Below the pieces are notes generated by a model. That model saw only the letters and a list, made by a program, of their open reading frames with translations, had not been told where the DNA came from and did no database searches. A stretch of DNA of 64,000 nucleotides from Lysobacter sp. CFH 32150 (GTDB lineage Bacteria > Pseudomonadota > Gammaproteobacteria > Xanthomonadales > Xanthomonadaceae). The stretch lies in the NCBI RefSeq assembly GCF_022758295.1, contig NZ_JALDWJ010000007.1:212940-276939 (forward strand), written 5' to 3'. Shown piece by piece: positions 5,822 through 55,978 of the stretch. A program made the translations under genes and the position numbers. Position 1 is the stretch's first letter, and each line of letters starts with the position of its first letter.

Positions 5822-6256
5822 CTACGGCGTCGGCACTTGCACCGGAACGCCGGACTTCAGTTCGTCCAGGGTAATGCTCTCGTCGTCGTTGACGTCGATG
5901 ACCTCGAATTGCTCCTCGACCGATGCCTGGTACTCGTCGAGGGACAGCACACTGTCATCGTTTTCGTCGCGCAGTGCGATCTTCTGCGCCGACGACATCT
6001 CGCCGTCGGCCTGCGGGTCCGCTGCGTCCATCTCCTCGACGGTGATGCTGCGGTTGTGGTCGGTGTCCATCGCATCGAACTCCGCTCGCGCCTCGGCGGC
6101 ATATTCGTCCAGCGACAGCGCATTGTTGTTGTCACGGTCCAAGGCGGCGAATCTGGCCTCGGCAGGGGACACGGCCTGGCCGCCGTAGGCGTGGGCCTGC
6201 GTGCCCACCAGGGCGGCGACGGCGACTACCAAGACATTGGCTTGGAGGGTGTTCAT
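5822..6256 (-). CDS. Secreted EF-hand protein with four calcium-binding loops
   Basis: 144 residues from ATG at 6256. A signal peptide (NVLVVAVAALVGTQAHA) is followed by four EF-hand loops: DRDNNNALSLDE, DTDHNRSITVEE, DENDDSVLSLDE and DVNDDESITLDE, each with acidic residues at loop positions 1, 3 or 5, and 12. The mature protein is strongly acidic and probably binds calcium in the periplasm. It is convergent with pilU, with 5 bp between stops. The role is unknown; similar small EF-hand proteins are common in Xanthomonadales. Confidence 0.85.
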   Translation of the reverse strand: MNTLQANVLVVAVAALVGTQAHAYGGQAVSPAEARFAALDRDNNNALSLDEYAAEARAEFDAMDTDHNRSITVEEMDAADPQADGEMSSAQKIALRDENDDSVLSLDEYQASVEEQFEVIDVNDDESITLDELKSGVPVQVPTP

Positions 6257-52768: not shown

Positions 52769-53704
52769 GTGGTCGCAGTGCAGGTGGTGGAGGATCGGAG
52801 AGTGTGCTTCGACTTCGAAGTCGACTTCTCCAATGGCGGTGGCATCCAGGGCCAGGGCTTCCGGCTGGACATCGACGGCGAGGAGATTTCCGACCAGGCA
52901 CTGGCGGACTACATCGTCCGCGATCTGCGCCTGCTCATGGTCGGCGAGGTGCGGATCCTCAACAAGCAGTTCATCAGCGAACGCCACAAGCGCAAGGCAA
53001 AAGTCGCGACGGAGGCCGTCGCAGAAACCAGGCATGGCGACCTGATCGACCTCAGCCACGTCGTACGCGACGGCGAGGTGGTGTTCCCCGGCCTGCCGGC
53101 ACCGCGGGTCACCGAGCACATGAGTCACGAGGACAGCCGCGACCGCTACGCGGACGGCGTCAGCTTCCAGATCGGACGCGTCGACATGGTTGCCAACACC
53201 GGCACCAGCATCGATGCGCCTTACCACCGTTACCCGGGGGCCATCGACATCGCCGACCTGCCGCTGGCGTCCATCGCGGACCTGGACGCGGTCGTGGTGC
53301 GGCTGTCGGGGATGCAGGGCCGCGCGATCACGCGCGAAGCCCTCGCGGCGACGGAAGTGCGCGGCCGCGCGGTGTTGCTGGACACGAGCCGTGCGCTGCA
53401 GTGGGGCGCGCCGGAGTACGTGGTGGATCCACCGTTCCTGGCGCGCGATGCGGCGGAATTCCTGCGGGACGAAGGCGCGCTGTTGGTGGGTATCGACGCC
53501 ATCAACATCGACGATACCGGCGATCCGCGCCGTCCGGCGCACTCCATCCTGCTCGAGGCGGGCATCCCCATCGTGGAGAACTTGGCGCGCCTGGACGCGC
53601 TGCCCATCGAGGGCTTCCGGTTTTCAGCAACCCCCATGCGGATTGCCGGCATCGGTGCTTTCCCGGTGCGTGCCTGGGCAAGGGTGCTGTCCGGAACAAC
53701 GTGA
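52769..53704 (+). CDS. Cyclase-family (kynurenine formamidase-like) hydrolase with an N-terminal extra domain
   Basis: 311 residues from GTG at 52769, with TTGGAG eight bases upstream. Residues 1-90 (FDFEVDFSNGGGIQGQGFRLDIDGEEISDQALADYIV) are a small extra domain. Then the cyclase core: DLIDLSHVVRDGEVVFPGLPAP, ANTGTSIDAPYHRYPG and later VGIDAINIDDTGDPRRPAHSILL. In KynB-like enzymes the metal motif is HxGTHxDxPxH; the first His here is Ser (GTSIDAPYH), a subfamily variant that keeps the Asp and final His. The substrate is unknown. The stop lies at the border of a long palindrome. Confidence 0.8.
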   Translation: MVAVQVVEDRRVCFDFEVDFSNGGGIQGQGFRLDIDGEEISDQALADYIVRDLRLLMVGEVRILNKQFISERHKRKAKVATEAVAETRHGDLIDLSHVVRDGEVVFPGLPAPRVTEHMSHEDSRDRYADGVSFQIGRVDMVANTGTSIDAPYHRYPGAIDIADLPLASIADLDAVVVRLSGMQGRAITREALAATEVRGRAVLLDTSRALQWGAPEYVVDPPFLARDAAEFLRDEGALLVGIDAINIDDTGDPRRPAHSILLEAGIPIVENLARLDALPIEGFRFSATPMRIAGIGAFPVRAWARVLSGTT

Positions 53705-53757
53705 TCAAAGGGGACGGAGGTAATTAAGCGCGCTTAATTACCTCCGTCCCCTTTGAT
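53704..53757. repeat. Perfect 54-bp palindrome (GGGGACGGAGG family)
   Basis: Two 27-bp arms meet at 53730/53731. Each arm begins ATCAAAGGGGACGGAGGTAA and ends TTAAGCG. The cyclase stop codon (53702-53704) and the stop of the convergent small gene (53738) both touch or lie inside it. A partial extra copy of the outer arm follows at 53758-53772. The perfect symmetry suggests a mobile hairpin element that inserted between the two genes. Confidence 0.9.
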
Positions 53758-54115
53758 TCGTCCCCTTTGATTGGTAACTGCCCGCGCACGTGACGCGCCC
53801 GGGCTCAATCTGCAAGGTGTTCATGCGCAGGCTCTTCTCCAGCGCGAAGAACACATCGCGCGAGAAGAAGCCCATCACCGCGTAAGTGCCCGGCGCCAGA
53901 TTGGCCGAATAGAACTCGCCGTTCTGGAACGTGACCGTCTTCTTCTCGCCACTGCTGCCCATGTACATCTTGGCCGGCTTGATCCGCATCAGGACCACAT
54001 GCGTCACGCCGACATCGGAATCGGTGGTGTCGAACGATCCGAATGCCAGCCCAGTTCCGGGCTCCGCGTTGTCGCCCGCGAGCGCCACGCCCGATACCAG
54101 CATGCGACCAGCCAT
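53738..54115 (-). CDS. Hypothetical secreted protein, probably truncated at both ends
   Basis: 125 residues from ATG at 54115. A remnant of a signal peptide (RMLVSGVALAGDNAEPG) and then THVVLMRIKPAKMYMGSSG, VTFQNGEFYSANLAPGTYAVMGFFSRD, and LRMNTLQIEPGRVTCAGSYQ follow. The final residues (SKGTNQRGRR) are coded by the 53704 palindrome and its partial copy, so the original C-terminus was replaced. The 5' side is next to another repeat-like segment. It may therefore be a decayed gene. The function is unknown. Confidence 0.5.
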   Translation of the reverse strand: MAGRMLVSGVALAGDNAEPGTGLAFGSFDTTDSDVGVTHVVLMRIKPAKMYMGSSGEKKTVTFQNGEFYSANLAPGTYAVMGFFSRDVFFALEKSLRMNTLQIEPGRVTCAGSYQSKGTNQRGRR

Positions 54116-54192: not shown

Positions 54193-54252
54193 GCATCACT
54201 ACTCGTTCAAGCCGAAGCTGCTTCGCCGCTCGGCTTGACCCAGGCGTTAGGC
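54193..54252 (+). repeat. attC-like site 1 (plus orientation)
   Basis: The right core GTTAGGC lies at 54246-54252. The inner arms TCAAGCCG (54207-54214) and CGGCTTGA (54231-54238) are perfect and have the spacing of an integron attC site of the Xanthomonas type. The left core (GCATCAC, 54193-54199) is degenerate against the RYYYAAC consensus. The serine hydrolase gene starts 19 bp later, as expected for the next cassette. Confidence 0.65.
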
Positions 54253-54271
54253 GGCACTGACAGGTGAGCCC

Positions 54272-55369
54272 ATGAAAGGCGTGATGGCCTTCCTTCTTGC
54301 ATCGATGGCATGCGCCGACGTGTCGGCGGAGCAGAATCAACGTCATGCGGGCGCAGCATCACCAGATATTCCCGCCTTTGTCGCACACCTGGACGTCCTC
54401 CGCAAAGCTTCGAACATCCCGGGTTTGTCTGTCGCTGTCGTGAAGGATCAAGCGATCGTTCTCGCATTGGGCTTGGGCTACGCAGACGCCGAACACCGCA
54501 TTCCTGCTACTGCCGAGACGCCCTACGACATTGCGTCGGTCGCCAAACCGCTCTCGGCTGTCGTTGCTCTCCGGCTTGTCGAGGAAGGAGTGCTGGACCT
54601 CGACCGACCGATGGCGGACTACAGCGAATGGGGAGAGTTCTGCACCGAGTTCAGTCAGCAACCGTCGATATTTGCTAAAGAGCTCCGCTGCCAGCCCCAG
54701 GGCCACACGCTCCGGCACTTACTCTCTCACACGGCCACATCGACGCCCGGCAACCACTTCTCCTACAACCCCGTGCTGTACTCCTGGGCGTCGCGGCCCA
54801 TCATGGCGGCCGCTGACACACCCTTCTCGACTCTGGTCGAACGGTATGTCTTCGTGCCTGCCGGCATGACGCGATCGGCGCGGAAACATCGGGATTTGCC
54901 CGTGCGAGAGGACCTCGCAAAGCGCCTTGCACCGCCGCATCGAGTCGCGGCATCTGGTGCCATCGAACGCGCTCCAGCGCTGTCAGCCCAGGGAGACGGC
55001 GCCGCGGGCGGCGTCATCACGACGGTCCTCGACCTTGCCAGGTTCGACGTCGCACTGGACCAGGGGAAACTGATATCGGCGCAGTCACGAGAAACGATGA
55101 TGGCGCCGGCGCGATCGGGCAACGGCGACGCGCTCCCGTATGGCCTTGGTTGGTTTGTGCAGGAATACCAGGGACATGCCCTCGTCTGGCACTCGGGATG
55201 GTGGGACGATGCGTACTCCGCGCTGTATTTGAAGATCCCAGCCCTGGACCTCAGCTTCATCGTGTTGGCCAACAGTGAAGGTGTCTGGTGGGATAACCCA
55301 CTCGACCAAGCGGAGGTCCAGCGCTCTGAGTTCGCGCAGGCGTTTATTCGGGCATTCGTAGATGACTGA
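54272..55369 (+). CDS. Serine hydrolase of the beta-lactamase/penicillin-binding class C type, in a probable gene cassette
   Basis: 365 residues. A signal peptide (MKGVMAFLLASMACADVSA) is followed by the class C/esterase-EstB fold. Ser89-x-x-Lys92 (IASVAKPLS) is the catalytic pair, Tyr165-Asn166 (FSYNPVLY) the second motif, and HSG at 307-309 (VWHSGWW) replaces the usual KTG. It resembles serine hydrolases (PF00144), which include esterases and D-aminopeptidases; resistance is not implied. It sits between attC-like sites 1 and 2 and so is probably a mobile cassette. Confidence 0.85.
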   Translation: MKGVMAFLLASMACADVSAEQNQRHAGAASPDIPAFVAHLDVLRKASNIPGLSVAVVKDQAIVLALGLGYADAEHRIPATAETPYDIASVAKPLSAVVALRLVEEGVLDLDRPMADYSEWGEFCTEFSQQPSIFAKELRCQPQGHTLRHLLSHTATSTPGNHFSYNPVLYSWASRPIMAAADTPFSTLVERYVFVPAGMTRSARKHRDLPVREDLAKRLAPPHRVAASGAIERAPALSAQGDGAAGGVITTVLDLARFDVALDQGKLISAQSRETMMAPARSGNGDALPYGLGWFVQEYQGHALVWHSGWWDDAYSALYLKIPALDLSFIVLANSEGVWWDNPLDQAEVQRSEFAQAFIRAFVDD

Positions 55370-55387
55370 CCACACTTTGTGGCCGCC

Positions 55388-55447
55388 GCCTCGCGCCTGA
55401 ATTAAGCCGAGCCGCGAAACGGCTTCGGCTTGAATGAATTGTTAGCA
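55388..55447 (-). repeat. attC-like site 2 (minus orientation)
   Basis: Read on the minus strand it begins TGCTAAC (55447-55441), continues AATTCATTCAAGCCGA, and ends near GCGAGGC (55394-55388), where the expected GTTAGGC is mutated. The inner arms AAGCCGA (55404-55410) and TCGGCTT (55425-55431) match. Its orientation is opposite to site 1. The TAA of the adjacent minus-strand gene lies inside TGCTAAC, as in normal cassettes. Confidence 0.65.
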
Positions 55448-55801
55448 CTCGTCCGATGGACGAATCACTGCGTCTTTACCAGGCCGACACGCAAGCTCGT
55501 AATGATGGCCGCCAACGAAGTTGAAGGTAATACGCGAACCCTCCTTCATCTGCGGATCGTTGGGACAGGAGTACCACACGGTCTTGAGGCCAGCCGTGAC
55601 GTTGGCGGAGAGACGTTGGCCAAAAGCGCGTGGCTGTGAATCAATGGCATCAATGCCATAGGCAATGCCGACGAGCGTTTGGTCCTCCGAGACAAAGGTG
55701 ATGGAGGCAGGCTCGGCAGACTGGTGTGGTTGGACTGGCAGGGCTTGGCCGTCTGCTGCAGCCAAAGCGGACACGACAAGCAGGCTAGATACGCTACCCA
55801 T
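55442..55801 (-). CDS. Small secreted protein in an inverted cassette
   Basis: 119 residues from ATG at 55801, with GAGGTG upstream. A signal peptide (GSVSSLLVVSALAAADG) precedes a soluble domain: SITFVSEDQTLVGIAYGIDAI, AGLKTVWYSCPNDPQMKEGSRITFNFVGGHHYELACRPG. Two cysteines probably form a disulfide. No family is recognised. Its stop codon TAA is the TAA of the attC-like site 2, so gene and attC form a cassette read on the minus strand. Confidence 0.6.
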   Translation of the reverse strand: MGSVSSLLVVSALAAADGQALPVQPHQSAEPASITFVSEDQTLVGIAYGIDAIDSQPRAFGQRLSANVTAGLKTVWYSCPNDPQMKEGSRITFNFVGGHHYELACRPGKDAVIRPSDEC

Positions 55802-55921
55802 GATGATCACCTCGTTGTGGCCCAAGAGGACAGTGCGACAGATCAGTTCTGCAGTGGTTCGGCGGTGTGGGTGCCGGGGCGCCTAGCGGTCGGTGAAAGG
55901 CGACGAAAGGTAGGTGATGAG

Positions 55922-55950
55922 TGCTAACAATCCATTCAAGCCGAAGCCCC
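55922..55950 (+). repeat. attC-like site 3, truncated
   Basis: TGCTAACAATCCATTCAAGC and CGAAGCC match the left half of site 2 read in the plus direction. The right half is missing; a GGACGGAGG-family element begins at 55957. Sites 2 and 3 are inverted copies of each other around the small secreted gene. Confidence 0.6.
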
Positions 55951-55956
55951 CTCGGG

Positions 55957-55978
55957 TTAATTGCCTCCGTCCCCTTTT
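55957..55978. repeat. Half copy of the GGGGACGGAGG family
   Basis: TTAATTGCCTCCGTCCCC followed by TTTT matches the right arm of the 53704 palindrome, with C for T in the A/T part. It directly follows the truncated attC site, so it may have cut that site. Confidence 0.65.

Follow-up and report, generated by a model that had tools for sequence, protein, structure and literature searches.

attC sites and genes of the window

A serine hydrolase gene and a small gene on the opposite strand lie among three attC-like sites, with REP-like repeats on both sides, in a 64,000 nt stretch (the whole of which we call the window) of Lysobacter sp. CFH 32150 (GCF_022758295.1). The window corresponds to C13:212940-276939 (contig NZ_JALDWJ010000007.1) of a genome of 3.51 Mb in 17 contigs. 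Its features are listed below, with a slash at cut points.

53704..53772, no strand: REP-like palindrome with TTAATTACCTCCGTCCCCTTT, on the upstream side of the satellite
54193..54252, plus: attC site 1; covariance model 59.8 bits, E 5.3e-14; 50/60 to the genome attC consensus
54247..55393, plus: cassette A; starts G/TTAGGCGGC, ends GCCGCCT-CG (GCCGCCT-AA expected)
54272..55369, plus: serine hydrolase gene, 365 aa, Beta-lactamase family of Pfam (PF00144, E 8.7e-50)
55388..55447, minus: attC site 2, the attC of reversed cassette B; covariance model 66.8 bits, E 4.8e-16; 55/60 to the consensus
55394..55927, minus: cassette B, a complete integron cassette of 534 bp, placed by start/end complementarity
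55442..55825, minus: small gene within cassette B, TTG start, 127 aa; TAA stop within the attC core; no Pfam family
55928..55950, plus: site 3, half attC (L'' side); 20/21 to the 5' half of the consensus; first base the C of TAA/C
55957..55977, plus: REP-like repeat that abuts the half attC and cuts site 3 off

To score the sites we used an attC covariance model of 21 pairs, trained on 32 attC from outside the window, taken from this genome and its family, whose structure is accompanied by covariation (24 double-change cells vs 6.3 in shuffles). The search space was the window and 40 kb of flank. In this check, which had been set in advance, sites 1 and 2 scored as listed, at exactly the coordinates and in the orientations given by a previous sequence-only reading of this DNA. 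Each of them fits the model, bulges (extrahelical bases) included, in a single orientation, and the two orientations are opposite and clear, as identity to the consensus in the other direction is 33/60 for site 1 and 32/60 for site 2. Single-strand folding compared with shuffles gave modest support (z -1.8 to -2.6 for sites 1 and 2). A search for the boxes (RYYYAAC / GTTRRRY) found R' only in site 1 (GTTAGGC, with R'' decayed to GCATCAC), R'' only in site 2 (TGCTAAC, with the crossover G/TT decayed to G/CG) and the R'' side only in site 3. Site 1 would be the attC of an upstream cassette that was lost.

Site 3 had been called a truncated attC. Its identity of 20/21 to the consensus, where the best stretch outside the three sites reaches 15/21 (104 kb, both strands), agrees with half an attC; on its own it scores only 14.8 bits (E 0.63), forms no palindrome with bulges and folds no better than shuffles, so that neither covariance score nor folding proves it.

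No Rfam match at gathering score was found in the window. This is compatible with hairpins of a repeat family other than attC; such an origin is extremely improbable, being contradicted by the attC model scores, by the array that lies beside intI and by the complementarity of the cassette ends. The REP-like repeat has 20 matches in the genome at up to 1 mismatch, and on contig C8 a Y1 (IS200-like) transposase gene (L094:617-1309) has copies of it on either side.

Pairing of cassette ends

In the cassettes of the main array of this genome, the bases after G/TT complement those before AA/C of the same cassette, with a mean of 10.2/14 against 7.9 for mispaired ends. The set consisted of 76 of 78 main-array cassettes (2 of at least 1200 bases were left out; the strict pattern caught 82 sites). 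Owing to this complementarity it can be asked which ends belong together.

The start of cassette B (TTAGCACTCATCAC) matches the reverse complement of its end (TTAGCACTCGTCCG) at 11/14, a value reached by 0/76 other ends and 0/76 other starts, which indicates that both borders of B are in place, the right one at 55927. The base directly after it (55928) is the C of a plus-orientation attC core. B has what defines a cassette, namely a gene with an attC, complementary ends and a TAA in the core, with G/CG instead of G/TT at one end. As had been noticed, the small gene ends in a TAA within the attC core; the gene also has an in-frame ATG at 55801, and its signal peptide was judged by eye only. Searched against 397 genomes of the order, its protein gave, besides itself, one match at 32%.

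Cassette A has a canonical start, and its end adjoins reversed cassette B. The attC of B is preceded on its left by GCCGCCTCG, which is the end of A as predicted, except that AA is CG; the 7-mer of the end matches, and A's own attC is split or lost. Bases 3-9 (AGGCGGC) are common to the start and end of A, an agreement seen in 51/76 true pairs and 242/5700 mispairs, and AGGCGGC itself occurs in 7/76 starts and 5/76 ends. The 14-base score of A (8/14) is not significant alone, being equalled by 56/76 other ends and 14/76 other starts.

Both junctions, 55393/55394 (AA now CG) and 55927/55928, fit the product of a reversed insertion at R'' (AA/C). Site 3 had been taken for an inverted copy of site 2, and it was overlooked that its first base is the exact integrase cut point; it is best read as the rest of cassette A's own attC, and not as belonging to a third cassette. 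The previous statement that the cassette was inverted or rebuilt by recombination holds as far as B is reversed, and can be sharpened to insertion at the R'' point TAA/C.

Group IIC-attC introns insert in attC opposite to cassettes, at TTGT/T (PMC7923331), and the target region and reversed orientation of B are the same. That B is such an intron is nevertheless barely credible, since it has its own attC and complementary cassette ends within 534 bp, its junction (TTG/TT) is one base off, and no reverse transcriptase is seen, its gene being without a Pfam match.

The integron integrase and the main array

A search for intI elsewhere in the genome, which had been proposed, found it on C8. Its open frame of 390 aa matches TIGR02249 with 481.8 bits (cut-off 265); matches to this model are confined to C8, C9 and C10, and the one on C8 alone exceeds the cut-off. 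The best solved relative is 2a3v (318 bits, over residues 4-314 of 314), IntI4 by name and from Vibrio cholerae. Arginine, histidine and tyrosine motifs are visible in the alignment of intI with 2a3v, and the gene on C8 is apparently intact, judging by its sequence.

The whole-genome scan, in which 150 candidates were scored, gave 125 attC matches at E up to 1. Most prominent is a large array spread over C8, C3, C4 and C15, with a single orientation on each contig as judged by eye. Small satellites lie on C7, on C13 (the window) and perhaps on C9 (two weak sites), and there are a few isolated weak matches besides. The main array also contains six attC variants in which a near-perfect hairpin and a common following sequence are repeated (L040 about 1879, 2732, 7970, 15596; L041 371; L044 743).

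Two attC 1.2 kb apart with no intI nearby make the locus a CALIN by definition and not a complete integron, as intI and its array sit on C8. The former remark that no integrase is present is thus true near the window, but not of the genome, and the term CALIN-like remnant is right as to class and misleading as to origin: as other contigs carry an apparently intact intI and a large attC array, the window holds a satellite and not the remnant of a lost integron. The region is best explained as a satellite of this genome's chromosomal integron that has decayed.

The breaks in the main array between C3, C4, C8 and C15 are those that near-identical attC repeats would cause, and the same repeats could have been misjoined at the satellite by short-read assembly. 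We consider such an artefact very unlikely, because the satellite sites are diverged: their longest exact matches to other attC loci are 21, 27 and 16 bases (sites 1, 2 and 3), short for misleading an assembler.

A second case of reversed cassettes on C7

The satellite on C7 (L045) is a minus-strand array that holds two plus attC sites inside. These belong to two cassettes, C1 and C2, placed by complementarity of their ends:

L045:4981-6017 (C7:464980-466016): cassettes C1 and C2, reversed in the host attC

One of their genes encodes an unknown protein of about 100 aa, the other a protein of 100 aa with a GyrI-like match under the Pfam cut-off. The host cassette, V (glyoxalase-like), ends in GGTCTAA at 6018, and half a minus-strand attC (CAGTTCATTCAAGCCGAAGCCG) runs from 4980 downward, to which the model gives only 16.7 bits (E 0.025). 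Both junctions, 4980/4981 and 6017/6018, are at the R'' cut. Complementarity is 12/14 for C2 (as good in 0/76 ends and 0/76 starts), 11/14 for V (0 ends and 4 starts of 76) and 10/14 for C1 (1 end and 6 starts of 76). Two more satellite cassettes, D1 and D4, gave 9/14 (as good in 22/76 ends and 31/76 starts) and 11/14 (5/76 ends and 5/76 starts). When the seven satellite cassettes were permuted, the true pairing was matched or beaten by 2/5040 permutations, itself included. C7 is a second case with the geometry seen in the window, with cassettes reversed within a split host attC.

Nearby, at L045:4459-4517, the R' (G/ATTAGC) of a decayed attC and the stop codon of a HAD-family gene overlap. 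The C7 satellite may have been founded here, by insertion at a chromosomal attG-like site.

Orientation of attC sites and host loci in relatives

The orientation of attC sites was compared with that in 20 relatives of the family, with 150 candidates scored per genome and clusters defined by neighbours within 4 kb. None of the 58 clusters was of mixed orientation (342 neighbouring pairs) among 428 of 522 matches listed, that is, the best 150 of 203 at E up to 1e-3, 128/128 at 1e-4 and the best 150 of 191 at 1e-5; the 94 weaker matches lie outside this count. A pattern search covered 9 of these 20 relatives, with its results assessed by eye. The genome studied here has two mixed clusters, the window and C7, and the earlier view that an inverted cassette is unusual agrees with the 0/58 among the listed matches. 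Separately, one relative (G011:C1:413737-446066) shows mostly low-scoring attC runs away from its main array, minus and then plus, 13 kb apart, which may be old satellites.

For the C7 case a relative of another genus (G002) carries the host cassette uninterrupted. Its V is 92% identical, the match ends at the junction (L045:6017), and V is followed by an attC of the same orientation (33.7 bits, E 6.5e-8) with nothing inserted; a longer local alignment of V (414/453 identical) takes in a few poorly matching bases beyond the junction. The attC of G002 is decayed and unlike the half left on C7, and therefore this locus shows the uninterrupted state and not the exact ancestor. V loci were inspected for attC in 3 of the 25 relatives with a V match: besides G002, G353 (V at 76%) has by eye a very decayed attC-like stretch after V, on which the model makes no call, and G481 has no attC match by V.

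Cassette A with an intact attC was found in neither of the two genomes, out of 395 of the family, that besides the one studied here have an A homologue, where the best hairpin reaches 13.2 bits (E 0.14; L103), nor at eight further A-homologue loci searched for attC, the best of which gave 16.4 bits (E 0.15; L066). An empty site was sought with the whole locus in 60 relatives, none of them marked as belonging to the same genus, and the flanks adjoin in none of the matches listed. In one relative (L102:1301-1402, minus), the gene after the serine hydrolase homologue has, by eye, a start similar to that of the GyrI-like gene on C7.

Proposed origin of the reversed cassettes

The best reading of these data, which we regard as likely, is a natural backward insertion of cassette B by the integrase into the R'' box of A's attC. 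The ancestral order on the plus strand would have been site 1, cassette A with its serine hydrolase gene, and the attC of A. At the R'' box (TAA/C) of this attC, instead of at R', the integrase would then have joined the canonical G/TT point of B in its circular form. As joining takes place at R'' and not at R', B would enter backwards and split A's attC, with R'' staying with A (55393) and the L'' half moved 534 bp downstream (55928, site 3). Later mutation would have changed AA to CG in the end of A and in the G/TT core of B, and a REP element would have removed the rest of A's attC. With its core now G/CG, B is probably locked in. The junctions match the prediction for an R'' crossover; the integrase as the agent, the partner strand used and the order of events are inferred. 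Candidate targets are the folded top strand, an attG-like double-stranded site and an already broken half attC.

Two other rearrangements were worked out by hand, one that simply inverts B between two R' points and one that inverts the attC of A together with B. Both predict another order of the attC halves and were rejected.

Both host attC are without their 3' half and both cases come from a single genome; with that half missing, the former wholeness of the host attC cannot be seen. Decay may thus have come first, in which event the host attC would already have been without its L'-R' half and the R''-L'' half would have acted as an attI- or attG-like double-stranded landing site of opposite direction. 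This order, in favour of which speak the R''-L'' half left alone in 2/2 cases, the attI-like arrangement of two tandem cassettes behind one half site on C7 and the reported attG insertion of cassettes into genomes (cited in PMC12444791 and PMC12901181), is possible, although we think it rather unlikely. The sequence leaves no record of the order of events and later truncation is equally possible, other satellite sites are decayed too, and there are two cases only. It is a variant of the best explanation, and its odds therefore overlap with those of backward insertion as a whole.

A different origin would be the joining of an unrelated plus array (A) and minus array (B) by rearrangement, homologous recombination or REP transposition, with the match to the cut point due to chance. 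REP elements do lie on both sides of the satellite, and attC copies are repeats able to recombine, but the first base of the half site is the cut base next to the complete end of B, and likewise on C7. Moreover, a homologous crossover in attC should give a hybrid whole attC and no TAA/C split, and the longest exact repeat in common with other attC loci is 27 bases. We judge this origin quite improbable.

Returning to backward insertion, we consider a further extension of it doubtful, namely that a broken attC (the R''-L'' half) serves as a landing site like a small reversed attI, from which satellite arrays grow backwards. The pattern it would leave is present as one reversed cassette in the window and two in tandem on C7. 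Satellites, and half attC sites especially, can now be tested as backward capture points.

Comparison with known systems

Cassettes are held to enter in a single direction because of the strand that the integrase chooses. With two apparent fossils at the R'' cut point in one genome, the disfavoured reaction seems to yield products that persist outside the main array. Tools that group attC sites by strand, probably IntegronFinder among them, may miss cases of mixed orientation.

Recombination of the bottom strand proceeds at about 1000 times the rate of the top strand (PMC8946536), and crossover normally takes place in the bottom strand, at R'; inverting the extrahelical bases shifts it to R'' of the top strand (PMC2727003). 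Inverted attC pairs showed no clear rise with integrase, and eight sequenced events changed only past the AAC point (PMC4792948), and on a plasmid, inversions have been seen that bear marks of integrase acting at secondary sites (PMC10127599). Natural cassettes reversed at R'' were not met with in the literature searched, most subscription papers being outside its reach. The R'' crossover is known from laboratory attC mutants; a reaction rarely obtained there may here have taken place in nature.

CALIN satellites outside the ilvD locus are known in Xanthomonas (PMC12444791), and are like the window in that attC sites and cassettes, few in number, lie at a distance from intI; the window differs in its mixed orientation, its reversed cassette at the R'' cut and the intact-looking intI elsewhere in the genome. 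The group IIC-attC introns (PMC7923331) share the reversed insert in attC, but the inserts here are cassettes with their own attC. The attG insertion of Loot et al. 2024, as cited by others, is alike in that the integrase places a cassette elsewhere than in attI or at the customary R' box of attC, whereas in the window an existing attC would be the target, on its R'' side. Laboratory recombination of the attC top strand, or of attC with inverted extrahelical bases (PMC2727003, PMC4792948, PMC9892861), shares the R'' crossover itself; those experiments used laboratory substrates, mostly with attI1, whereas the products described here would be natural, between attC and attC, and kept in a genome.
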